A stretch of 64,000 nucleotides of DNA from Prosthecobacter debontii (GTDB lineage Bacteria; Verrucomicrobiota; Verrucomicrobiia; Verrucomicrobiales; Akkermansiaceae). The stretch's first letter is position 1. Every line of letters starts with the position of its first letter. Below the pieces are notes generated by a model. It saw nothing but the letters and a program-made list of their open reading frames with translations, was not told the origin of the DNA and made no database searches. Shown here in pieces: positions 1,610-54,316 of the stretch. Made by a program: the position numbers and the translations under genes. The DNA lies in the NCBI GenBank assembly GCA_945870855.1, contig CAMBTP010000010.1:1-64000 (forward strand), written 5' to 3'.

Positions 1610-3058
1610 ATGAGCCGCATCAGAAACATCACTCTCTCCATAGGCCTAGCGCTCGCGCCTGTAGCAGCCGCGCAGACACCGGTCGAAACCGCCAAGGCCG
1701 ACCTCGCGAAGTCGGTCAAGGAACTCGGCGACACGAAAAAGGAATACGGCGATCTGCGCCGCGCCCTTTACCGTGACATCAACCGCCTCGACGACGAGGC
1801 CTTGCAACTCGGCAAGGAACTCCGCGATCTCCAGCGCGAGGAAGAGCGCCGCACCGCCACGATCAAAACGCTGGAGCGTGAGGTAGAAGGGCGTAAGACG
1901 GATTTCAACTATTCGGTAGGCATTCTCAGCCAATATTCCAAGGCCTTGGTAACACGCCTGCATCCGGCAGAGAATCAGCTCTACCGTGGGAAGGTGGAGG
2001 AGATCGACCAGAAGGCAGCAGCCGCTCAGGATGATCCGAAGGCGGAAATGACGGAGCGCGTGAAAGTCCTAGAGATCGGCATCAATCGAGTGGGCGAAGT
2101 GGCTGGAGGGCATCGCTTTGACGGCAAGGCGCTGCGCAACGGCAGCGAATCCATCGAAGGCAAGCTCCTCGTGATGGGGCCGTCCGTATTCTTCGCCAAG
2201 AAGGGCGGCGGCTTCGAGGGTGTGGCTACCTTCGCGGAAACGGGGACTCCGCTACCAACCGTCGTAGCGATCGCGGACTCCAAGGGCGGGATTTCCGAGG
2301 CGATTTCTGAAATGAAAGGTGAGCTTCCTTTCGATGGCTCGATGGGCAAGGCGATCGAGGTGGCGGCCGCGCAGGATACGCTGTGGGAGACCATTGAGAA
2401 GGGTGGCTACGTCGGCCATGCGATCCTTGTCCTCGGAGCCATCTCTTTCCTGATCGCGTTCCTCAAGATGATCCAGGTATCGAGATTCAAGGTTCTGCCT
2501 CGCCACGAGTTGAACCTGATCCTAGACGATCTTCTCAACGGGAAGCGTGCGGATGCGGCGAAAAAAGCCAGCCTGATCCCCGGCGACGCAGGGGATCTGA
2601 TCCGGATCGGTGTGGAAAACTTTCACGAGAAACGCCGCGTGCTGGAAGAATCCCTTTTCGAGAAACTCGTCACGATCAGGCCCAAGCTCGACAGTTACCT
2701 TCCTTTCCTCGCCCTCACCGCAGCAGCCGGCCCACTGATGGGTCTCCTCGGCACCGTGCTCGGTATCATCAAGACCTTCCAGGCCATGGCCCTCTACGGC
2801 AGCGGCAACCAGAAGAACTTCACAGCCGGTATTTCCGAAGCACTCATCACCACAGCGGAAGGCCTGATCGTTGCGATCCCTGTCCTCGTCGTCCACGGCC
2901 TGCTCAAGAGCGTGGTGAAATCGAAATTCGGTGAGATCGAGGGATCTGCCATCGCCCTGATCAACGGCACCACGGAACGCGAGAAGCCCCATCAAACGAA
3001 GGCTGAGCGTGACGCGGAGGACGATGACGACACCGATCTTGTTCCCACTACCGCCTGA
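1610..3058 (+). CDS. TtpC-like MotA/TolQ/ExbB-domain protein with periplasmic coiled-coil N-terminus
   Basis: 482 residues. A signal peptide (about 1-21) is followed by a coiled coil (about 22-110), a periplasmic globular region (about 130-250), and a MotA/TolQ/ExbB proton-channel domain with membrane segments near 268-290, 350-385 and 405-430 ('LTAAAGPLMGLLGTVLGIIKTF'). This extended ExbB architecture is that of TtpC, the fourth component of TonB2-type systems in Vibrio and relatives. The acidic C-terminal tail is cytoplasmic. It sits between the DUF3450-like gene and exbB with 6-8 bp gaps, so it is co-transcribed. It probably couples proton flow to TonB. Confidence 0.85.
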   Translation: MSRIRNITLSIGLALAPVAAAQTPVETAKADLAKSVKELGDTKKEYGDLRRALYRDINRLDDEALQLGKELRDLQREEERRTATIKTLEREVEGRKTDFNYSVGILSQYSKALVTRLHPAENQLYRGKVEEIDQKAAAAQDDPKAEMTERVKVLEIGINRVGEVAGGHRFDGKALRNGSESIEGKLLVMGPSVFFAKKGGGFEGVATFAETGTPLPTVVAIADSKGGISEAISEMKGELPFDGSMGKAIEVAAAQDTLWETIEKGGYVGHAILVLGAISFLIAFLKMIQVSRFKVLPRHELNLILDDLLNGKRADAAKKASLIPGDAGDLIRIGVENFHEKRRVLEESLFEKLVTIRPKLDSYLPFLALTAAAGPLMGLLGTVLGIIKTFQAMALYGSGNQKNFTAGISEALITTAEGLIVAIPVLVVHGLLKSVVKSKFGEIEGSAIALINGTTEREKPHQTKAERDAEDDDDTDLVPTTA

Positions 3059-3066
3059 ACTGAACC

Positions 3067-3675
3067 ATGACAGGAATCTTCAAAGACGGTCTCGATCTCT
3101 TTATCTCCGGAGGGGAGATCATGTATATGCTCGGCGTTGTCGCGTGCATCCTCTACGCGTATTGCTTCGCCGCGCTTGCTTACGTGAACCGGGGAAATCT
3201 CAACGACAAGGACGTGGATAAGTGGGCGGAATGGATCGAAGATCCCACCAAGGCTAAAGGCCGTCTTGGCGAAGCGCTCAGTTACGTTCTCCATGGACCG
3301 CGCTTGAGCATAAAGACCGTCGGACGTCGTTTTGAGGAAATTCGGATCAACCTCGTTTCGAACATCGACCGCCGCCTTCTGGTGATCAATACGCTCGTCG
3401 CCGCCGCACCACTAGCCGGATTGCTCGGCACGGTGACCGGTATGCTCGCAATGTTCTTAGGGCTTTCGCAAGGCACCGGCGCATCCGGAATGCAAAAAGT
3501 AGCGGACGGAATGCAGGAGGCTCTCATCACCACCCAGACCGGCCTGACGGTGGCGCTTCCTGGTCTCTTCCTCGGTCTCATTATCAAGTCCAAGCGCGAC
3601 CGCATCGCCGGCACGCTTGCCCGCTTGGAAAGTCTCATCCTTACCTCGCGTTTCCACCGCGAACCCAACCCCTGA
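3067..3675 (+). CDS. exbB: ExbB proton-channel protein
   Basis: 202 residues with the MotA/TolQ/ExbB pattern: a first membrane helix near residues 17-38 and a pair near 108-132 and 155-178, with 'AAPLAGLLGTVTGMLAMF' and the 'GMQEALITTQTGLTVALPGLF' segment. It forms the inner-membrane proton channel that powers TonB. It lies 8 bp after the TtpC-like gene and 10 bp before exbD. Length and motifs are typical of compact ExbB proteins found beside TtpC. Confidence 0.9.
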   Translation: MTGIFKDGLDLFISGGEIMYMLGVVACILYAYCFAALAYVNRGNLNDKDVDKWAEWIEDPTKAKGRLGEALSYVLHGPRLSIKTVGRRFEEIRINLVSNIDRRLLVINTLVAAAPLAGLLGTVTGMLAMFLGLSQGTGASGMQKVADGMQEALITTQTGLTVALPGLFLGLIIKSKRDRIAGTLARLESLILTSRFHREPNP

Positions 3676-3685
3676 TCCACAAACC

Positions 3686-4093
3686 ATGCTAGGACGCAAC
3701 ATAGGCGACGAAGCCGACGAACCCGTGATCATCGACCTCTCCTCGATGATCGACTGCGTTTTCATCCTCCTGATTTTCTTCATCGTCTCCACGGTTTTCG
3801 TCGAGGAAACGGGCGTGAAGGTGAATAAGCCGGATGTGGGCGGTGCCAGTGCGCTGGAGAAAAATTCCATCCTGCTGGCCGTGACCTCAGAGGACAAGGT
3901 GTTTTACGGCGGTGAAAGCGTCGGTGTGCAGGGTGTGATCGGAAAGATCAAACCCCTTCTCTCAGAAACGCCAGACATGAGTGTGATCATCCAAGGCGAC
4001 AAGGATTCCACTCACGGCATCGTCCAGCAAGTCCACGGCCAAGCCCTTCTCGCCGGAGCGATGAAAGATAGAATTTCCGTCTCCACCAAATAA
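3686..4093 (+). CDS. exbD: ExbD/TolR biopolymer transport protein
   Basis: 135 residues. A short cytoplasmic head leads to one membrane helix (about 20-42) holding the proton-relay aspartate D23 in 'SSMIDCVFILLIFF', followed by a periplasmic ExbD/TolR domain. The ATG at 3686 was preferred to an in-frame start at 3617, which would lie deep inside exbB. It partners ExbB in using the proton gradient. It is followed by a 57-bp AT-rich spacer with repeated TTTCAG units before tonB. Confidence 0.9.
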   Translation: MLGRNIGDEADEPVIIDLSSMIDCVFILLIFFIVSTVFVEETGVKVNKPDVGGASALEKNSILLAVTSEDKVFYGGESVGVQGVIGKIKPLLSETPDMSVIIQGDKDSTHGIVQQVHGQALLAGAMKDRISVSTK

Positions 4094-4150
4094 ACTCAGC
4101 AACTTAGTTTTCAGCGTTTCAGATTTTAGCATTTCAGCTTTTACCCATCC

Positions 4151-4801
4151 ATGTCCCGCCACGTTTACAGACCGCCCCGAGGCAAGTTCACCGGCATCTT
4201 CGCGGTGCTCGGGGGGCTTATCGCGACCATCGCGGTCTTTGTGGCGATCCCGCTTTCGCAAAAACTCAGCCAGATGCTCGACCCCAAGCAAGCTGTGCCG
4301 CCTGAGATGACCGTTGAGCCACCTGAGGAAATGGACTTTGAAACCGAGGAGCCTCCCGAGGAGATGGAGGAAGAACCGGAGCCGGAAGAGATGGTGGAGG
4401 AATCCTCGGATCTCGATATGGGCATCGATTTAGGCGATCTCACAGCAGGCACTGGTGGCGGCTTTGTAATGGAGATACCGAACTTCGGGATGAAAGGCGG
4501 CGAAGATGCCATCGGCGGTGACCTCGACGCACCTCCCCAGCCAACCAGTAAAATTCAGCCCACCTACCCGAACTCGCTTCTCAGCCAAGGCAAGGGCGGA
4601 CGGGTGCTCATCTCCTGCACGATCGATGCCACAGGAAAAGTCGTTGGCACCTCGATCAAGTCCTCTTCCGGCCATCCCGATCTCGACAAGGCCGCCATCA
4701 ACGCGGTCAATCGCTGGAAATTCAAACCCGGCACAAAAGGCGGCAAGCCCGTCAAATCCGTCGCCGTCGTCCCTTTCAATTTCGAAGTGAAAAAAAGCTA
4801 A
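4151..4801 (+). CDS. tonB: TonB energy transducer
   Basis: 216 residues: a basic N-terminus, a membrane anchor (about 14-35), an extremely acidic Pro/Glu linker (about 48-92), and a C-terminal TonB domain (about 130-214) containing 'PTYPNSLLSQGKGGRVLISC' and 'INAVNRWKFKPG'. The usual linker is Pro/Lys-rich; here it is Pro/Glu-rich, as in TonB2-type proteins. It should carry energy from the ExbB/ExbD/TtpC complex to outer-membrane receptors. The next gene begins 6 bp downstream. Confidence 0.9.
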   Translation: MSRHVYRPPRGKFTGIFAVLGGLIATIAVFVAIPLSQKLSQMLDPKQAVPPEMTVEPPEEMDFETEEPPEEMEEEPEPEEMVEESSDLDMGIDLGDLTAGTGGGFVMEIPNFGMKGGEDAIGGDLDAPPQPTSKIQPTYPNSLLSQGKGGRVLISCTIDATGKVVGTSIKSSSGHPDLDKAAINAVNRWKFKPGTKGGKPVKSVAVVPFNFEVKKS

Positions 4802-43793: not shown

Positions 43794-44066
43794 ACCCGCA
43801 ATGTGACGCATTTTTCCCGCGAGGCAAATGCTAGTCGCGAGAATGGGGCGGGGGATCACCCCTGATTCGCGCGCACCCAAGCTCCGGCGTATTCGTTTCT
43901 CATCCCGCCCAAGCTCGTTTATCCTTGGATACGGAATTTTCCGACCAAATACTCTGGTTCTTTGTTCCGATGAACTTGATCGCCTTGACACGCGGGCTTT
44001 CATCGCGGAGATGATTTTCTATTGACCGCTATCCGCGTTCCGATAGTAAACGCCTACCGAAATAAA

Positions 44067-46964
44067 ATGCCCTGCAGGATAAAATTTTCCGCCCTATCGC
44101 TTGCCGCCCTCTTTTGTGTGGCTTCGACAATCTCGGTATTCTCACAGACTCCCCCGGCAGCCCCGGCGACTCCCGTGCTTCCGGTTATCGCCACGCCAGC
44201 TGTGCTGAACCAAATGTATAGCGAGGCAGAGGCAGCCTTCGCCGCGAAGGAATACGACAAGGCGATCGCCAAGATTGAGGAGCTTCTCAAAATACTCGGC
44301 CCAGGCAGGGATGCGCCTTACGAGTTGCTCTTTTTTAACATCGGCCTCGCCAACCTGCTCAGCGAAAAGTTTCCCGAAGCAGAGGTATCTTTCCAGGATT
44401 GCATCAAGCGCTTTCCGAAAGGCGAATATAGCTCGCGCTACCATCTCGGCCTCGGCCGGGCGAGCATGCTCCAGCCCGATGAGGCGAAAAAGCAGCAAGC
44501 CATAGCCGCCCTGAAAGTGGCAGCAGCAGATCCCAAATACCGCTCCGAAGCTGGCCTCTGGCTGGGACTGGTTTACACAGAGACTGGAAAGCTCGATGAA
44601 GCCCTTAAAGTATTCCAAAGCCTGATGGGCTCCGACGTCCGGACACCTCAACAGACAACCGCAGCCGTCCAGGTGATCGGGTTGCTTGCGGACGTCGGAA
44701 AACTGGAGGATCTGACCTCCTACCTTGACCGCTTGTCCTACCAAGCCGGCGTGCGCGATGCGATCGCCTGGTATGCGAACCAGGTCCTCGTGCGCGGCGA
44801 TGAGCTGGTTTCCAGTAACGCCTATGAAGCAGCGCTGGCCATCTACCGGTCGGTGCCCTCCCGCAACCAGATCATAGAAATTCAGAATTCCTCCCTTGGG
44901 GCGATGCGCGCTGACCGCAAGATCCTCGAAGACCGTGTGGAGTCGGAGAAGACGAAAGAAATCAATAAGCGCTCGAATGCATCCGAAATGCTCACCGGAC
45001 TCAAACCCGCCATCGAGCTCGCCGAGGAAGCACTAAAAGCCATCGAAGCTAAAACCGATCTGGACGCCGCCCTGCTCATGCGGCGCGGACGCTGCCTGTT
45101 TTATCTGAACCGCTACGAAGAGGCGCTCGTCTGTTTCCGGACGATCCGCGATAAGTATCCCACGGCCTCTGATGCGGACTCCGCCGCCTACGCCGAGATC
45201 GTAATTTTCCACAAACTGGGCAACCTTCCGGAGATTCAGGACAAGTGCAAACTGTTCATGAGGAATTTCCCGAAATCCAATAACATGGAGCACGTGGCCA
45301 CCCTTGCCGGCGAGCTACTTGTCCAAAGCGGAAACTGGAAGGAGGTCGAGAATTTCTACAGCAAACTGGAGACCAGTTTCCCTGAATCCGAAAGCCTCGA
45401 CCGCTATGTTTTCTTCCAAGCCGTCGCAGCATTCCAGGACGGGAACTTGACCAAGTCCACCCCTTTACTGGAAAAATTCCTTAAACAATATCCCAACAGC
45501 CCCCTCTGCGAGAACGCGATGTATTACATCGCGATGTCATATTTCCTGGGCAATAAATACAAGGAAACGCTCGCCGCCTGCAGCGCATACCTCAAGAAGT
45601 TTCCCGATGGCTCCTACGCCGGCGACATGCGCTACCGCCTCTCTTTCATCGACTTCAACGACACAGAGCCAGACCAGTCCCCGAAGATCATCCGCGAACT
45701 CACCGAATTCCTCAAGGATCACCCGAGTGACGTCTCGAACGGCTCAATGTATTGTCTCCTGGCTGATACCTACAAGCGTATCGATAAAGCTGATGAGGCC
45801 TTAGAGAACTACACCAAGGCGGTGTGGACCGACAGCCCTGATGATGCAATCCAGTATGCCCTCGATTCAGCCACGGCCATCCTTCAGGATCGTAAGGATT
45901 GGGATGGCACCGCCCGCCTTCACGCCGAGTTCATGAAACGCAAGCCGGAAAGCCAACTCGCATTGTTTTCGGCAAGCTGGGTGGCGAAAATGAAGACCCG
46001 CGAGGGCAAGGGTGCCGAAGCCGCACAGATCCTAGGCGATACGATCAAGATCCGGATCGCAAACCCCTCCAATGAACAGGTTGAGTTTCTCATCGATGAA
46101 CTCGTTAAAACGCTCGTCCCGCGGATAAAGCCCAAGGACATCGATACCGAAGCCCTTGATAAAGAACTCGTAGCGCTTTTCGAAAAGATCGCTGCCGGAC
46201 AGGATAACTTGACCACTTTCGCGCGCTCCTACTACGCCCGCGCCCGCCTTGCACAGTTGCTGCGGCGCAACGATCGCTCCGATTTTTACCTAAAGGCGAT
46301 CGCGACCAACACCGCCAAAGATCCATCCGCCCTGAGCCCTGCTTTACTCGCCGTTTCCGGTGAAATACTGCTCAAGAGCGGTGAACTCGACGCCGCTGAG
46401 GCCATGTTCAAGCGGCTCACCGACCGCTACAAAGACTCGCTATTCTCGGACGCCGGGCCAGTCGGCATGGGATACGTCGCGCTCGCCCGCGAACAGCCGG
46501 CCGAGGCTCTGCGCATCTTCGAGGATGCCCTGGAAAATAATCCCGGCACATCTCGCTTCAAGGAAACCACCCTCGGCAAGCTTGAGGCACTCGTGGAGCT
46601 CGAAAAATACGATGAAGCAAGCAAACTCGCCCTCCAATTGATTGGTGACAAGATGTTCCGCGGGGAGTTCGCTGGGAAGGCCTACCTGCTTCTTGGCCGG
46701 GTGTATCGTGGACAAGCCGCAGATGCCTCCGGCGCAGAGGCGACTGAGCTACTCAAGAAAGCGCACGGCACCTACCAGCGCGTTTATGTCGCTTACCAGG
46801 CATTTCCGGATACCTGCGCCGAGGCCTATTGGCAGGCTTACGAGACCGCTAAACAGCTCGGGGAGAAAAAAATTGCCAAGGAGACGCTTCTTGCTCTGAG
46901 AAATCACCCCAAACTTCAAAATACCGCTCAATCAAAGGAAGCGCAGAACACAACCACCGAGTAA
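44067..46964 (+). CDS. Large secreted TPR protein of second Ton-like locus
   Basis: 965 residues from the ATG at 44067, with a signal peptide (about 1-27) and a Pro/Ala spacer. The rest is an alpha-solenoid of many TPR-like units ('SEAEAAFAAKEYDKAIAKIE', 'YNRYEEALVCFRTIRDKYP'-type repeats, 'MYYIAMSYFLGNKYKETLAA'). It resembles YbgF/BamD-like periplasmic scaffolds. It is followed after 6 bp by a smaller TPR-like protein and then ExbB, ExbD, ExbD, placing it in that complex. Confidence 0.85.
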   Translation: MPCRIKFSALSLAALFCVASTISVFSQTPPAAPATPVLPVIATPAVLNQMYSEAEAAFAAKEYDKAIAKIEELLKILGPGRDAPYELLFFNIGLANLLSEKFPEAEVSFQDCIKRFPKGEYSSRYHLGLGRASMLQPDEAKKQQAIAALKVAAADPKYRSEAGLWLGLVYTETGKLDEALKVFQSLMGSDVRTPQQTTAAVQVIGLLADVGKLEDLTSYLDRLSYQAGVRDAIAWYANQVLVRGDELVSSNAYEAALAIYRSVPSRNQIIEIQNSSLGAMRADRKILEDRVESEKTKEINKRSNASEMLTGLKPAIELAEEALKAIEAKTDLDAALLMRRGRCLFYLNRYEEALVCFRTIRDKYPTASDADSAAYAEIVIFHKLGNLPEIQDKCKLFMRNFPKSNNMEHVATLAGELLVQSGNWKEVENFYSKLETSFPESESLDRYVFFQAVAAFQDGNLTKSTPLLEKFLKQYPNSPLCENAMYYIAMSYFLGNKYKETLAACSAYLKKFPDGSYAGDMRYRLSFIDFNDTEPDQSPKIIRELTEFLKDHPSDVSNGSMYCLLADTYKRIDKADEALENYTKAVWTDSPDDAIQYALDSATAILQDRKDWDGTARLHAEFMKRKPESQLALFSASWVAKMKTREGKGAEAAQILGDTIKIRIANPSNEQVEFLIDELVKTLVPRIKPKDIDTEALDKELVALFEKIAAGQDNLTTFARSYYARARLAQLLRRNDRSDFYLKAIATNTAKDPSALSPALLAVSGEILLKSGELDAAEAMFKRLTDRYKDSLFSDAGPVGMGYVALAREQPAEALRIFEDALENNPGTSRFKETTLGKLEALVELEKYDEASKLALQLIGDKMFRGEFAGKAYLLLGRVYRGQAADASGAEATELLKKAHGTYQRVYVAYQAFPDTCAEAYWQAYETAKQLGEKKIAKETLLALRNHPKLQNTAQSKEAQNTTTE

Positions 46965-46970
46965 GCATAT

Positions 46971-47801
46971 ATGCCTATTTTACCCATGACTTTCCGTGTC
47001 CTGCTCGTCATCCTGCCTTTCCAGTTCGGCACGGCGGAAACTCTCCAGCTGGTGCTTCAGAGCGGTCGCTCCGTGCCTGTCGCCGCCTTGTCCATGCAAG
47101 GCGACACCTTCACTGTCAAAACTTTGATTCCAGGCTTCAAAATCGGCCAAACCATACCCCTGACATTGGCCGACCATATTTACGGAGATAAACCCGCCCT
47201 GATTAACCAGGCCATCGCACTCAACCTCGCCGGCAGACCCAAGGAAGCCCGTGATATGCTGCTACCGGTGGTCAAAGAACACGCAATCACAGCAAAGATC
47301 CCAGGTAATTTCTGGCTCGAAGCTTCCCGCGCCCTGCTCGTAGCCCACGCCCTAAACGGCGAAACAGCAGATGCCACTGCCATCGGCAAGGAGATTGCCG
47401 AGGCGACTGCTGCTCAAGGCATCGAACCTTTTGTGCTGCTTGGTAAAGCGCTGTTGCTACCCGCCACAACCAGTTTCCAGGATCGGGACAGCGCCCTGCG
47501 CGACCTCACCACCGACAACCTGCCCGAGGATCTACGTGCCTCCGCGTCATATTTTCGCGGCAACCTCCTGAAAGAGGAAAAGAAAAAGCCCGAGGCGCTC
47601 GAGGTTTATTTATCTGTGCCTTGCCTCTATCCTGCGGGCGGCCTTATCATAAATGCGGCAGCTGAGATGCAGGCAGCTGAGATCCTTGTGGAGCTCAATC
47701 GCCGGGATGAGGCTATTCTACTAATCAAATCCGCGCTTTACGCTACCAAAGGCACCATACTAGAACTTCAGGCAACCTCTCGGATTGAAAGCCTGAAATA
47801 A
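46971..47801 (+). CDS. Secreted TPR-like protein of second Ton-like locus
   Basis: 276 residues: a signal peptide (about 1-22), a short beta segment ('LQLVLQSGRSVPVAALSMQG'), then helical repeats ('INQAIALNLAGRPKEARDML', 'ILVELNRRDEAILLIKSALY'). I recognise no named family. It sits between the large TPR gene and exbB in an apparent operon, so a periplasmic accessory role is likely. Confidence 0.7.
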   Translation: MPILPMTFRVLLVILPFQFGTAETLQLVLQSGRSVPVAALSMQGDTFTVKTLIPGFKIGQTIPLTLADHIYGDKPALINQAIALNLAGRPKEARDMLLPVVKEHAITAKIPGNFWLEASRALLVAHALNGETADATAIGKEIAEATAAQGIEPFVLLGKALLLPATTSFQDRDSALRDLTTDNLPEDLRASASYFRGNLLKEEKKKPEALEVYLSVPCLYPAGGLIINAAAEMQAAEILVELNRRDEAILLIKSALYATKGTILELQATSRIESLK

Positions 47802-47837: not shown

Positions 47838-48626
47838 ATGAAAAACACCATCCGTAAGGCAGCGATCACCGGATTATTGCTGCTACCCATGACCGCTATC
47901 GGAGCCTCCACCAAGGCTGGAGTCACCGAGAAAACCTTCATCGACGTTTACAATGAAGGCGGCTGGTGCATGCACTTCATCATGCTTTTCTCCATCGCCA
48001 CCGTCTGGCTGATCATCGATATCTGGATCCGCACCAATTCCAAGAAGATGACCCCCGAGGCCGATGTCCTCTCCGCCCAGCAGCACTTCCTCGCCGGTGA
48101 TTACATGGGTGCCTACGCATCAATGAAGTCCGCTGTCAGCCCCTTCGCCCAGGTGGTGCGCGCCGCACTCGGCTCCGTCGGATACGGCAAGGATATCACT
48201 GAGGAGGCGTTGCTCTCCGAAGTGGACAAGATCAACTCTACCATGCAGACCCGTATCAACTACCTTTCCGTCATCGGGGTTTGCACGCCGATGGTCGGCC
48301 TGCTCGGAACGGTCGCCGGTATGCGCGGCGCGTTCGGTGAGCTCGGTGCCTCCGGCATCGGCGATCCAGCAGCCCTTTCCGGCCACATCGGCGAGGTGCT
48401 TATCGCCACCGCGTCAGGCCTTTTCGTAGCGATTCCTGCCTTCATGGGTTTCTACTTCCTGCGCAACAAGCTTCAGGCAGCCGTCCACCAGCTTCAGGAC
48501 AAGGCGGAAATGCTCTTCCGCCACGCCCCCTACGACTACCTAAAGGACACGGATGTCGGTCAGGAAGCCACCTATGCCGCCATGCCAAACTGGCTCGCCG
48601 AGCCTGAGTCTGACGTGCAGGCCTGA
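47838..48626 (+). CDS. exbB: MotA/TolQ/ExbB proton-channel protein (second locus)
   Basis: 262 residues. The N-terminus looks like a signal sequence ('ITGLLLLPMTAIGAS'), then three membrane segments at about 38-57, 150-175 and 188-210, with 'VCTPMVGLLGTVAGMRGAFG' and 'IGEVLIATASGLFVAIPAFM', the ExbB core. It pairs with the two ExbD proteins that follow. A signal peptide on ExbB is seen in several Planctomycetes/Verrucomicrobia homologues. Confidence 0.9.
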   Translation: MKNTIRKAAITGLLLLPMTAIGASTKAGVTEKTFIDVYNEGGWCMHFIMLFSIATVWLIIDIWIRTNSKKMTPEADVLSAQQHFLAGDYMGAYASMKSAVSPFAQVVRAALGSVGYGKDITEEALLSEVDKINSTMQTRINYLSVIGVCTPMVGLLGTVAGMRGAFGELGASGIGDPAALSGHIGEVLIATASGLFVAIPAFMGFYFLRNKLQAAVHQLQDKAEMLFRHAPYDYLKDTDVGQEATYAAMPNWLAEPESDVQA

Positions 48627-48667
48627 TAGGCTTACGCAAAACCCAATAAAACCAACATCTAACGACC

Positions 48668-49102
48668 ATGGCAGGAGGCGGAGGAGGAGACAGCGGCGAA
48701 CCGGAATTCCAGATCGCCCCGATGATCGATGTGCTGCTGGTGCTGCTCATTTTCTTCATGAGCATCACCTCGGCGGAGGTGCTCAAGGTGGACAAGAACA
48801 TCGTCCTGCCCGTCTCGCCGAACGCGAAGAAACGGGATCCGGAGTTCTCCAAACACGAGATGGCCATCAACGTGCGCTGGAACGCAAAGGAGAGTAAAGC
48901 CTACGTGAATGTGGACGACCGGAAGTTTCCCGATCTCGCGCTGGCCGTAACTTATTTCCAGGAAAAGAAAAAGAATGATCCGCAGATTCGCGCTGTCATC
49001 CGCGGTGATAAGTCTCTTCCCGCCATCGAGATCCAACGGGTGATGAATATCATCGGCGAGGGTGGAATTGCCGACCTTTCGTTCGCCGCCTCCAATAAAT
49101 AA
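48668..49102 (+). CDS. exbD: ExbD/TolR protein 1 (second locus)
   Basis: 144 residues; Gly-rich head, then a membrane helix with the proton-relay aspartate D21 ('FQIAPMIDVLLVLLIFFMSI') and a periplasmic domain ('KAYVNVDDRKFPDLALAVTY', 'VIRGDKSLPAIEIQRVMNII'). It lies 41 bp after exbB and 5 bp before the second exbD. Confidence 0.9.
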   Translation: MAGGGGGDSGEPEFQIAPMIDVLLVLLIFFMSITSAEVLKVDKNIVLPVSPNAKKRDPEFSKHEMAINVRWNAKESKAYVNVDDRKFPDLALAVTYFQEKKKNDPQIRAVIRGDKSLPAIEIQRVMNIIGEGGIADLSFAASNK

Positions 49103-49107
49103 AACCC

Positions 49108-49560
49108 ATGAAACGAAGCAGGAAAAAGCCGACAGCGGAGGTTAACCTCGGATTCCAGATCGCGCCGATGATCGACGTCGTATTCGTCATCATGCTATAC
49201 TTTATGGTCATGGCTGGCGCGGTTCAGGTCGAGAACGCCCACAACACGAAACTGCCCGGCACTGTCCAGGTCGAGAGTTCGGACACACCCATGCCCGACG
49301 AGATCGCCATCCGCATCGAGGATGACGGGCAGGTTTACCTCAACGACGATCCGCTCGACACAGCGGAGGCGAAACTCCTTAACGAACTTGCTTCCAACCT
49401 CAATCAGTTGCGTGAAAGCAGCGATGCCTCGCGCTCCGAAGTGCTGGTTACCATCTACGCAAACGAACAGGCGAAATATGAGAGGGTAATCGATGTGCTC
49501 GACGCGCTCACCATCGCTAAGATCACCAATGTCACCTTCCAGGCAGGTGCCCCGGAATAA
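49108..49560 (+). CDS. exbD: ExbD/TolR protein 2 (second locus)
   Basis: 150 residues with a basic head and aspartate D23 in 'FQIAPMIDVVFVIMLYFMVM'; the periplasmic part has 'DEIAIRIEDDGQVYLNDDPL' and 'ERVIDVLDALTIAKITNVTF'. Having two different exbD genes in tandem suggests a hetero-dimeric ExbD in the motor. It is 33 bp upstream of the toroid protein gene. Confidence 0.9.
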   Translation: MKRSRKKPTAEVNLGFQIAPMIDVVFVIMLYFMVMAGAVQVENAHNTKLPGTVQVESSDTPMPDEIAIRIEDDGQVYLNDDPLDTAEAKLLNELASNLNQLRESSDASRSEVLVTIYANEQAKYERVIDVLDALTIAKITNVTFQAGAPE

Positions 49561-49593
49561 TCCCGATTAGAATCCCAACCGAAAACCCGAACC

Positions 49594-51138
49594 ATGGAAA
49601 CTGACCAGCAGCAGGCAGTGCACACCGAACCCCAGAGAAAGAAGATCGGCTTCTGGGCCAAGTTCGGCGGTGGGTCGTTTACGATCGCCGTCCTGATCCA
49701 TGTCCTGTTTGCGATACTCGGCGGGATCTGGATCGCCCAGCGGATCTACCAGCCTGAGAAGAAAATCGATTTCCTTCCCGGCGGCGGCGAAGCGGGCGGC
49801 GGCGCGCGCAGCGCGCAATCCAAGGTTCAGGAGAAGAAGCGGGCTCAGATCACCCCCACGTCCAACATGAAGCGAGTCTTTGCTGAGGGTGCTGCTTCCA
49901 CTTTTTCCATACCCGATCCCGGCGATAACTTCGGTGAGATGTCCGCGCTTAGTTCACTCGGCGGCGGTGGCGGGATGTCCGGCGGCTTAGGTGGCTCTGG
50001 CAGCGGCGGCGGTTTCGGCTCTGGCGCGGGCTCTGGCAACGGTCTTGGCTTGGGCACGGGCACAGGCAAGCTCTTCGGCTTGATTCCGCAAGCCCTGAGC
50101 AAACGCTGTTCCAAGGAGGACCGGCTCGCCCGCCTTAGGGAAAACGGCGGCACCCCGGAATGCGAGGAGGCGGTTGTGAAAGGTCTTCGCTGGCTCAAGG
50201 CGAACCAGAATCCAGATGGATCATGGGCCCAAGCCAACAAAACAGCAATGACTGGCTTAGCACTGCTGGCCTACTTCGGCCACTGTGAAACTCCAATTTC
50301 CGAGGAATTCGGTGAATCATGTCTCAAGGGTATCGTTTATTTGGTAGCGTTCGGCACCAAGACTGACGGGATGCTTGCCCCAAATATCACCAGCCAAAAC
50401 GGAGCATACGAGCACGGTATCGCCACTTACGCCTTGGCCGAAGCGGCCACCTTCTGCAAGGAGCTCAAGCTCGACATCCCCCAACTCGCCGAAGTTACCG
50501 AAAAGGCCGGGCAGTTCATCATCGATAATCAAAATGAAAATGGTGGGTGGGCTTACGGGTATGACAAGACCAAGATGGGTCACACCGACACCTCAGTAGT
50601 TGGTTGGCAACTCCAAGCCCTCAAGGCATGCAGCCATACCAATATCAAATATAAGGGTATGAAAACCGCCGTGGATGATGGCCTCGATTACATGGAGGGT
50701 TGCCAAGCGGAAGACGGCAGCTTCGGTTACACAGGCCGCGGCGGCAGACCTGCGCTCACCGGAGTGGGCGTGCTTTGCTACCAGATGTGGGGCAAGGAGA
50801 AATCCAAAGGCACACGTGAGGGGGTGAAATACATCAAGGACACCTTCAAGTTTAAGTGGGACACGCAGGACTCCGACCTTTACAGCCACTATTACGCATC
50901 CCAAGCCATGATGCAATCGGGCGGATCTTATTGGAGGTTCTACAACGATCTTTTCCGAGACGAAATCCTGAAGAATCAGAATGAGGATGGCTCATGGAAG
51001 GCTCCCGCGTTCGAGGGGCACGGCCTAGAGCCGGCGAAGGTGATCTACCGCACCACGCTCAGCGTCCTGATGCTTGAGGTCTACTACCGCTTCCTCGCGA
51101 CCAGCGGCGGAAGCCGGCTCGACCGTCCCGGTATCTGA
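49594..51138 (+). CDS. Membrane-anchored prenyltransferase/squalene-cyclase-like (alpha/alpha toroid) protein
   Basis: 514 residues. A cytoplasmic N-terminus, one membrane helix (about 29-50, 'SFTIAVLIHVLFAILGGIWI'), a Gly-rich linker (about 125-160), then a periplasmic alpha/alpha toroid with QW-like repeats: 'GLRWLKANQNPDGSWAQANK', 'FIIDNQNENGGWAYGYDK', 'YMEGCQAEDGSFGYTGRGG', 'ILKNQNEDGSWKAP'. No DxDD cyclase motif is visible, so terpene cyclisation is unlikely. Its topology is TonB-like (anchor, linker, periplasmic head) and it follows ExbB-ExbD-ExbD, so it may be the motor's output arm. Confidence 0.85.
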   Translation: METDQQQAVHTEPQRKKIGFWAKFGGGSFTIAVLIHVLFAILGGIWIAQRIYQPEKKIDFLPGGGEAGGGARSAQSKVQEKKRAQITPTSNMKRVFAEGAASTFSIPDPGDNFGEMSALSSLGGGGGMSGGLGGSGSGGGFGSGAGSGNGLGLGTGTGKLFGLIPQALSKRCSKEDRLARLRENGGTPECEEAVVKGLRWLKANQNPDGSWAQANKTAMTGLALLAYFGHCETPISEEFGESCLKGIVYLVAFGTKTDGMLAPNITSQNGAYEHGIATYALAEAATFCKELKLDIPQLAEVTEKAGQFIIDNQNENGGWAYGYDKTKMGHTDTSVVGWQLQALKACSHTNIKYKGMKTAVDDGLDYMEGCQAEDGSFGYTGRGGRPALTGVGVLCYQMWGKEKSKGTREGVKYIKDTFKFKWDTQDSDLYSHYYASQAMMQSGGSYWRFYNDLFRDEILKNQNEDGSWKAPAFEGHGLEPAKVIYRTTLSVLMLEVYYRFLATSGGSRLDRPGI

Positions 51139-51295
51139 CCCTTCGCGGTTCAATAACTCTTTTCTGACAAAGTCTTGTGACTGTCCTTCCCTAGTGTGGG
51201 AGCCCTGCTTGAACTATCCCTCTTTTCAGTTGACCCGTTCGGGAATCAGTCCAGATTGTTTCCGTAATTGAGACACGTTCTCAATAAATTTGGCC

Positions 51296-52417
51296 ATGCC
51301 TCACCCTAATCTGCCTTCCTCTTCCCCCCCAACTGTCTCGGCGTTCGCGCCAAGAAAGAGGATTCCGGCGTCGTCACATATCTCATTCAACCCAAACTCC
51401 TCCTCACCTGCACCTCCTAAATTACCGCGGCGAGATCCACTTCCGGAACGACAAGGCGATGAAAAAATGATCCCGGAGGAATGTCTTGGATGCCTTGAAT
51501 CGCTGAAATCCAAGCCGATCCGCACCTACATTGCGGCACCCATCCAAGTCGATAGCAGGAAGTCTTACCTCTCCTATCAATCCAGGTTATTTAGCGTCAG
51601 GAACTTAATCACCGGAGCTTTATCGATAATCATCGGGGGCGCGCTCCTAGCGTTTTTACTCACGCTAATTGGAATGTCGGGAGTCCTCGAAAAACTTTCA
51701 AGTCGGTCGGACCTGACGTTCCAGAGTGTCGAGATTTACGATCTCAATCCGCTTGTGCCGCCCTCCAGTGCGAGCCCTAAGGCGTCACCGTCCCAGCCGA
51801 GCACATCGCCGCCTCCCAGTTTACCTCCCGTCCCGGCTGTACGAGCGGTGCAAACGGCAGACATTCCCTCACCGGCAGAACAATTCATCCAGCAGCCTGT
51901 GCTCAGTTCGTTCAGTCACGTTCCGGATTTATCCTTACCCAAACCGTTTAAGGAGACACCGCAGAAAGAGAAACCCAAGGAAACATCGGACCAGACATCC
52001 ACGGAAAAACCGAAGCAGACTTCAGAACAAGCAACCAAGAAAACATCCAACGAGGCCTCTGAGGAAGCGACTAAGCAGACATCGAATCAGGCTTCAAAAC
52101 GATCATCCGCACAGCCCGCCGCAAAATCCCAATATGGCATCAGTGAATTGGACGGCACGCCGCGGCTGCTACGCCACGGAACCGCCACTTTCCCCGTCAG
52201 CCTAAGCCGAAAAGGCATCTCGCGCGGCACGGTCATTTTTGAGGTGGAACTTTCCGCCTTAGGTTCGGTCCGAATCCAGCGCGTAGTTTCCACCACCCAT
52301 CCGGATCTCGTCGAGCCCGCTCGCCGCGTCGCATCCAGCGCCCGTTTCACCCCGCCCAAGCGCGATGGCCAAGTTGTAAATGCCGTTATGCGCTGGCCCA
52401 TCATCATCGAGAAATGA
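51296..52417 (+). CDS. TonB-family protein (second locus)
   Basis: 373 residues from the ATG at 51296; an internal ATG at 51467 would give 316 residues and may be the true start. A membrane helix lies near residues 100-126, followed by a Pro/Ser region, a Lys/Thr/Ser/Gln repeat tract ('QTSEQATKKTSNEASEEATK'), and a C-terminal TonB domain with 'GTVIFEVELSALGSVRIQRV' and 'PARRVASSARFTPPKRDGQV'. It should accept energy from the ExbB/ExbD motor upstream. It starts 157 bp after the toroid gene, so it may have its own promoter. Confidence 0.78.
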   Translation: MPHPNLPSSSPPTVSAFAPRKRIPASSHISFNPNSSSPAPPKLPRRDPLPERQGDEKMIPEECLGCLESLKSKPIRTYIAAPIQVDSRKSYLSYQSRLFSVRNLITGALSIIIGGALLAFLLTLIGMSGVLEKLSSRSDLTFQSVEIYDLNPLVPPSSASPKASPSQPSTSPPPSLPPVPAVRAVQTADIPSPAEQFIQQPVLSSFSHVPDLSLPKPFKETPQKEKPKETSDQTSTEKPKQTSEQATKKTSNEASEEATKQTSNQASKRSSAQPAAKSQYGISELDGTPRLLRHGTATFPVSLSRKGISRGTVIFEVELSALGSVRIQRVVSTTHPDLVEPARRVASSARFTPPKRDGQVVNAVMRWPIIIEK

Positions 52418-53677: not shown

Positions 53678-54316
53678 TCAGGCTAGCATCAGTTTCACCC
53701 AATCCGCTTCATAGAGTGTGAACTCTCCCTCGCGTAGTTTCTCGGGATTCCTTCTCACATATCTCGCTGCGCGGATCATGTGTTTCCAGTCCCGGATCAT
53801 CGTATCGAAATAATCCTTCTGCCACAGCCTGCCTTCCTGCCCAAGGATCACGTTGATCCTACGCGCGGTATATTTTTTCCATCCGCCCACGACCTTTTCC
53901 AGCGACTCTCCCACCGCCATAGAGAACAGCACATGCGCATGGTTCGGCATGATAACCCATGCGTGCATATCGTAACGGCTCCCGTCCGCGTGTTGGAAGG
54001 AATCCTCTACCACACTCCTGACTTCAGTCCTTTTCAGGACACAGGAACCGTGCCCGTTATCCAGCAGACGCTCGATGCCCATGGTGATAGTTCGGTGGTA
54101 TTCCGTCTCCACCTCCGGCTCCCATGGCTTGGGATGCTCTGCAAGCCATGCGTCGCGCTCCGCCCGCCATTTTATCATGAGTTCCTCCGGTATGGAGTCC
54201 GCCAGGCGCCATGTCAGGAAATACGTTGCTCCCGGTTGTTGCCAGTGCGGTAGCTTCCCGCCGGTTTTGCGGATTTCGATGAATTCGTTGAAAAACGCAT
54301 TGTCGAAATCCTCCAA
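53678..54316 (-). CDS. REP-associated tyrosine transposase (RAYT)
   Basis: 212 residues from a TTG start. Y1/IS200-like fold with HUH motif H126-A-H128 in 'VIMPNHAHVLFS', 'LWQKDYFDTMIRDWKHMIRA', and catalytic tyrosine Y186 in 'ARYVRRNPEKL'. RAYTs nick single-stranded REP sequences and are thought to spread them. It is flanked on both sides by direct copies of the same 71-bp REP pair, a typical REPtron arrangement. Confidence 0.92.
   Translation of the reverse strand: MEDFDNAFFNEFIEIRKTGGKLPHWQQPGATYFLTWRLADSIPEELMIKWRAERDAWLAEHPKPWEPEVETEYHRTITMGIERLLDNGHGSCVLKRTEVRSVVEDSFQHADGSRYDMHAWVIMPNHAHVLFSMAVGESLEKVVGGWKKYTARRINVILGQEGRLWQKDYFDTMIRDWKHMIRAARYVRRNPEKLREGEFTLYEADWVKLMLA

Follow-up and report, generated by a model that had tools for sequence, protein, structure and literature searches.

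An ExbB-ExbD-ExbD motor locus of Prosthecobacter debontii and its TonB-shaped, toroid-headed partner, a predicted force transducer of Verrucomicrobiota

The stretch of DNA analyzed here (the window) comprises positions 1 to 64,000 of contig CAMBTP010000010.1 from the 2.98 Mb, 91-contig assembly GCA_945870855.1 of Prosthecobacter debontii (Verrucomicrobiota; Akkermansiaceae). It harbors, on the forward strand between 44022 and 51138, six genes in the order TPR1-TPR2-ExbB-ExbD1-ExbD2-toroid, which encode two tetratricopeptide repeat (TPR) proteins, an ExbB-type and two ExbD-type motor subunits, and a membrane-anchored protein with a toroid-shaped head. The intergenic gaps from TPR1 to the toroid gene range from 5 to 41 bp, while the gap between the toroid gene and the TonB-domain gene that follows it is 151 bp. 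An earlier reading, made from the sequence alone, had described an ExbB-ExbD-ExbD motor followed by a toroid gene and preceded by two secreted TPR proteins, and this arrangement was confirmed at the coordinates collected in Table 1. The start of TPR1 is listed as TTG, though an ATG further in is likelier, and an orthologue of TPR1 precedes the motor in relatives as well.

Table 1. Coordinates of the motor locus, the parts of the toroid protein and the neighboring TonB-domain gene in the window.
Feature	Positions	Strand	Basis
TPR1, large secreted TPR protein with CpoB/YbgF- and BamD-like repeats	44022-46964	+	TIGR02795 tol_pal_ybgF 5.2e-29, over cut-off
TPR2, second secreted TPR-like protein	46971-47801	+	Weak TPR match; orthologue at the same place in relatives
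ExbB/TolQ-type motor subunit	47838-48626	+	PF01618 (MotA_ExbB), E 3.8e-24
ExbD1 with transmembrane Asp (APMID)	48668-49102	+	PF02472, 5e-16
ExbD2 with transmembrane Asp (APMID)	49108-49560	+	PF02472, 1.7e-21
Toroid-headed, TonB-shaped predicted force transducer, 514 residues	49594-51138	+	PF13243 SQHop_cyclase_C, 1.4e-08
Transmembrane helix of the toroid protein, residues 26-49	49669-49740	+	AlphaFold2
A32-x3-H36 within that helix, equivalent of the TonB/TolA Ser-His motif	49687-49701	+	Sequence comparison
P54-EKKIDFL-P62, conserved proline-flanked strand, candidate ExbD-binding D-box	49753-49779	+	Position and pattern
Disordered Gly-rich linker, residues 63-166	49780-50091	+	AlphaFold2
Periplasmic alpha6/alpha6 toroid head, residues 167-503	50092-51102	+	AlphaFold2; QW repeats kept, DxDD absent
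TonB_C-domain protein, neighbor only	51290-52417	+	PF03544, 2.2e-06

The AlphaFold2 model of the toroid protein, built from an alignment of 46 sequences (window and GTDB), contains a single membrane helix and a linker of about residues 55-166, over most of which the predicted local distance difference test score (pLDDT) is <50, while most residues of the head score >90. A conserved segment, ITPxxNxKRVFAEGA...IPDPGDxFGEMSxLSSL, is embedded in the linker. The head forms a complete alpha6/alpha6 toroid with squalene-hopene cyclase as its top PDB chain in VIA-align (2sqc, Z 27.3, root-mean-square deviation of 2.9 over 288 residues, 18% identity), and its PDB neighbors include GH76 mannanases and sugar epimerases. 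The QW repeats are retained, and GHTDTS stands where squalene-hopene cyclase has DVDDTA; no DxDD was found in the window protein or among the states listed at the equivalent position of 158 aligned toroids, and because this motif is absent the head, though of the terpene-cyclase toroid fold, is not expected to carry out cyclase chemistry. Pfam matched the protein with squalene-cyclase toroid models only, with no TonB_C or TolA C-terminal domain. The anchor, Gly-rich linker and DxDD-less toroid read earlier from the letters are thus all present in the model.

The motor genes retain the residues on which motors of this type work. T158, T191 and P200 of ExbB are kept in 73/73 orthologues, S52 in 70/73 and W57 in 48/73; T158 and T191 are the proton-path (pore) threonines, equivalent to T148 and T181 of E. 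coli ExbB, as placed by alignment to solved TolQ, the nearest solved motor relative of the window ExbB by sequence (E 2.2e-11). The transmembrane aspartate is kept in all orthologues of ExbD1 (44/44) and of ExbD2 (54/54), so each could function as an axle subunit.

The neighborhood of the toroid gene was then compared across the family and the phylum, as the sequence-only reading had proposed, with the toroids divided by whether their membrane helix carries the histidine found at H36 of the window protein (H-anchored) or not (His-less). Within the family, all H-anchored toroids except L102 are encoded immediately 3′ of TPR1-TPR2-ExbB-ExbD1-ExbD2. The named GTDB set consists of Akkermansiaceae/Verrucomicrobiaceae, mostly metagenome-assembled genomes, together with Haloferula and Luteolibacter isolates; among its loci with ≥2.5 kb of sequence before the toroid gene, the motor and/or ExbD2 lies upstream of 37/42 H-anchored toroids vs 0/33 toroids with a His-less helix (Fisher p 2.8e-16, phylogeny ignored). 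ExbD2 stands beside the toroid with no recognized ExbB in place in five of those 37 (L206, L211, L213, L216 and L218), TPR genes being present in L206, and such ExbD2-toroid pairs suggest that ExbD2 is specific to the toroid. Toroid genes lying mostly away from exbB/exbD, the pattern named in advance as speaking against the pairing, were found only in the sub-lineage with the His-less helix. An additional ExbB-ExbD-TPR cluster was observed after the toroid in many relatives (L176-L199), and in the window genome this cluster is on another contig (L056).

Outside the family, 30 genomes were picked by toroid score and not by neighborhood, and ExbB-ExbD-ExbD was found directly upstream of the toroid in 24 of the 27 genomes with context, across 14 further families. 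No further transducer-like genes were found beside these distant motors, so that the toroid is the sole local transducer candidate there. Overall, some 16 families in the phylum show the arrangement, a recurrence far beyond chance, and since the pairing is conserved in a sample chosen without regard to neighborhood, the association of toroid and motor is probably old, while the toroids that have neither His nor motor appear to form a derived side branch. Two conserved elements follow the helix of these His-less toroids (L220, L221, L231 and other motorless GTDB loci, as well as a paralogue in the window's own genome, L050:7269-8720), namely a KETPVIVTY strand and a KKVxTNxxxKPSAPS stretch.

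TonB and TolA dock to ExbB and TolQ via the Ser-x3-His of the SHLS motif, with TonB Ser16/His20 contacting ExbB Ser34/Trp38 and Trp38 contacting Pro190 (PMC12215075). The equivalent [S/A]xxxH was observed in every anchor of the motor-bearing genomes (77/77, with Ser in 60 and Ala in 17); the window protein keeps the His as H36 and has Ala for Ser at A32. On the motor side, S52, W57 and P200 of the window ExbB would correspond to the docking residues Ser34, Trp38 and Pro190. Four anchor-like helices carry no His; one belongs to the uncoupled own-genome paralogue L050, and the other three come from motorless genomes. In other families the anchor is no longer alignable, yet SxxxH is present in nearly all toroid helices. 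The helix is followed by a PEKxVDFxP strand, or PDIEVTVVEP in distant members, which may be compared with PISVTMVTP of TonB, whose D-box (QPISVTMVTPAD) is captured by ExbD via strand recruitment (PMC10907165). A strict D-box pattern was matched by 12/26 distant motor-linked toroids vs 2.0 expected by shuffling, and 0/1000 shuffles reached 12. The proline-flanked strand is a candidate D-box-like element judged by position and pattern.

The same anchor was found on other heads. When the full toroid protein was searched against its own family, some matches were limited to residues 3-162, and these partially matching proteins share the helix and Gly-rich linker while carrying PA14-like heads (L044, L045, L047 and L048) or vWA heads (L046 and L049). 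An anchor profile (A1) matched at E ≤ 1e-6 in 26/117 family genomes, with up to 13 matches per genome (G082), and the 82 anchor-matching open frames in the examined regions comprised 18 toroid, 41 PA14-like, 15 vWA and 8 other proteins, the last including a DxSGS type and fragments. The PA14-like heads were assigned only by Pfam, with a best match of 1.5e-06 and with L048 and L111 exceeding the cut-off, and a model of this head type from three sequences had a mean pLDDT of 34 and was unusable. The DxSGS type (L101, L117, L123 and L124) had no Pfam match at 0.05 and is vWA-like by eye only. The PA14-like and vWA paralogues are mostly orphan genes away from the motor; recurrent neighbors of these orphans were sought and no clear cluster emerged. 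In Haloferula sp. BvORR071 (L205), by contrast, a PA14 paralogue is present beside the motor along with the toroid. Near five orphan PA14-headed or anchor-bearing loci (L100, L107, L109, L122 and L130) a large secreted protein with beta repeats is encoded that resembles an autotransporter, which may be chance. The TonB topology with a different head, as first described, stands for the toroid protein, but the toroid is not the sole head on this anchor.

At E ≤ 1e-40, an orthologue of the window ExbB was found in 18/117 family genomes, always in a single copy. The same 18 genomes, and no others, have a best anchor match with E below 1e-18; this motor is absent from the eight genomes whose anchors are weak (1e-7 to 1e-9). 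The chance of this match would be 1/C(117,18), about 1.5e-21, if the genomes were independent, which they are not; presence and absence of motor and anchor co-vary also within genera g1, g7 and g11. In G082 the motor has no local transducer, and the genes of its 13 anchored proteins lie dispersed along the chromosome. On the simplest view, one motor would probably energize several transducers in Akkermansiaceae.

We consider it likely that TPR1-TPR2-ExbB-ExbD1-ExbD2-toroid is a proton-driven trans-envelope force machine with the toroid protein as its transducer, a reading in line with the proton-driven motor and TonB-shaped partner proposed earlier and supported by the synteny, the [S/A]xxxH helix, the candidate D-box-like strand, the retained motor residues, the co-occurrence of motor and strong anchors, the swapping of heads on one anchor and the predicted structure of helix, tether and toroid. 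In such a machine, an ExbB pentamer would enclose an ExbD1/ExbD2 heterodimer, which proton flow would cause to turn or shift, and the toroid protein would dock to the outside of ExbB via the Ser/Ala-His face of its single helix. Docking of the helix into the ExbB pore, which the sequence-only reading had set as a test, does not agree with solved Ton/Tol motors, where the TonB/TolA helix lies on the transmembrane helices of ExbB/TolQ outside the pore and ExbD/TolR lies inside (PMC12215075). The strand just after the helix may be caught by the periplasmic domains of ExbD, so that proton flow would pull or move the Gly-rich tether ending in the toroid, which could act as a ligand-binding head on some partner of the outer membrane, cell wall or periplasm, in the manner of TonB and TolA. 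Nothing in the analysis pointed to enzymatic activity of the head or spoke against ligand binding. TPR1 and TPR2 would be probable periplasmic adaptors, like CpoB in Tol, and in Akkermansiaceae recombination appears to have joined the anchor to PA14-like and vWA heads. We lean, by somewhat more than an even chance, toward the broader view that TPR-TPR-ExbB-ExbD-ExbD is a general-purpose periplasmic force motor of Verrucomicrobiota with a phylum-wide toroid transducer, to which Akkermansiaceae add up to 13 plug-in toroid, PA14-like or vWA transducers on one anchor.

Several findings weigh against the toroid protein being the transducer of this motor. The Leu-x3-Ser half of SHLS is not retained, its positions being G43 and I47 in the window protein; this half is poorly conserved in Ton proteins too (PMC12215075). 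The linker is rich in Gly where that of TonB is rich in Pro. Fewer than half of the distant members match the strict D-box pattern, and PEKKIDFLP of the window is only a loose, shorter match. Five H-anchored GTDB toroids with context are not beside a motor, a few motor-linked toroids of other families have no His (L307, L315, L320 and L322), and three motor-bearing genomes (G026, G036 and G082) have no toroid after the motor. The motor operons of G082 (L154) and G036 (L155) have extra ExbD2-type genes in place of the toroid.

It is improbable, though the best surviving alternative, that the toroid protein, as a periplasmic enzyme or binding protein on a membrane tether, is merely co-transcribed, the motor driving something else and the tether only keeping the toroid at the inner membrane. 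Polar residues are conserved in the head of both the His and the His-less forms, and the His-less toroids are widespread with no adjoining motor (none of the 33), so the head works motorless in some lineages. This explanation fares poorly, however, against the finding that the His goes together with the motor and that a candidate D-box-like strand follows the helix; the anchor is common to different head types, strong anchors are confined to genomes with the motor, and distant motor loci offer no local transducer candidate besides the toroid. It is very unlikely that the toroid regulates the motor or acts as its sensor, perhaps as a ligand-binding cap gating proton flow, instead of being its output arm: the fold often binds small or glycan ligands, as its mannanase and epimerase neighbors illustrate, and ExbD2 and the toroid are sometimes paired without ExbB in place, but output arms (TonB, TolA and vWA transducers) are built of just such a helix, long disordered tether and head, and head-swapped paralogues occur in many copies per motor. 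We give equally little credence to an ordinary Ton system in which the TonB-domain protein at 51290 is the transducer and the toroid an accessory, for although that gene does follow in the window, as first noted, it is not a conserved member of the set, having no relative in any locus searched, its helix has no SxxxH, it is set off by the 151 bp gap, and the window has a separate, more conventional ExbB-ExbB-ExbD-TonB-like set at its other end (about 1610-4801).

Among known systems, the predicted transducer stands closest to the vWA-headed, proton-motive-force-driven transducers proposed in 2025 for the Planctomycetes-Verrucomicrobia-Chlamydiae group, which are encoded behind TPR-TolQ-TolR-TolR (PMC12204202, Mol Biol Evol). 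The two share the upstream TPR, tolQ-like and paired tolR-like genes, the SHLS-type helix, the disordered linker and a non-TonB head, but here the head is a toroid (or PA14-like), the linker is Gly-rich and one motor would serve many transducers. The main text of that paper has no mention of squalene or prenyl, and no earlier description of toroids with ExbD in this group was found in a full-text literature search of limited coverage; what appears new is therefore a putative toroid-headed transducer within a family of swappable heads. With TonB the protein has in common the Ser/Ala-x3-His helix, the candidate D-box-like strand, the extended tether, the periplasmic head and a motor with conserved Thr, Asp and Pro, whereas it differs in having no TonB C-terminal domain, two different ExbDs, a Gly- instead of Pro-rich tether, and TPR partners. 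The likeness to Tol-Pal (TolQ-TolR-TolA with CpoB) lies in TolQ as the nearest solved relative of ExbB and in TPR1 scoring over the tol_pal_ybgF/CpoB cut-off, while no TolA C-terminal domain is present and TolB_N has no match in the window genome. A replacement role for Tol-Pal was considered in view of the missing TolB_N match and is not argued here, as most sampled Akkermansiaceae are also without this motor. Type II terpene cyclases, including squalene-hopene cyclase, share the alpha6/alpha6 toroid and QW repeats, but the protein here has a single toroid domain, has no DxDD, is predicted to be membrane-tethered in the periplasm and is encoded with a proton motor. We therefore regard it, by analogy, as TonB/TolA-like in its working, yet outside the TonB/TolA family, the vWA class and the cyclases, since it has neither the C-terminal domain, the vWA head nor DxDD, respectively.

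Two further observations concern the window and its genome. The window's own genome contains another ExbB-ExbD-ExbD-TPR cluster (L051 5954-12002, G000:C8), with an OmpA/Pal-like (OmpA-domain) gene about 1.7 kb upstream (L324). Further along the window, an open frame at 53678-54316 on the minus strand has, by sequence appearance only, the look of a REP-associated transposase (HAWVIMPNHAHVLF).

The occurrence of the same anchor on different heads in related genomes suggests a versatile and little-known way of delivering force across the envelope. To our knowledge, few outputs of TonB/Tol-type motors have been described, these being nutrient import, envelope constriction, gliding and phage defense; a phylum-wide motor with an arm ending in a terpene-cyclase-type toroid would be a distinct and directly testable output. 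It would also extend the vWA transducer class proposed in 2025 (PMC12204202), and the head-swapped paralogues may offer a natural module for what an ExbB/ExbD motor recognizes in its transducer. For Verrucomicrobiota, the finding may provide a function class for many genes that are now annotated as squalene-cyclase or prenyltransferase-like.

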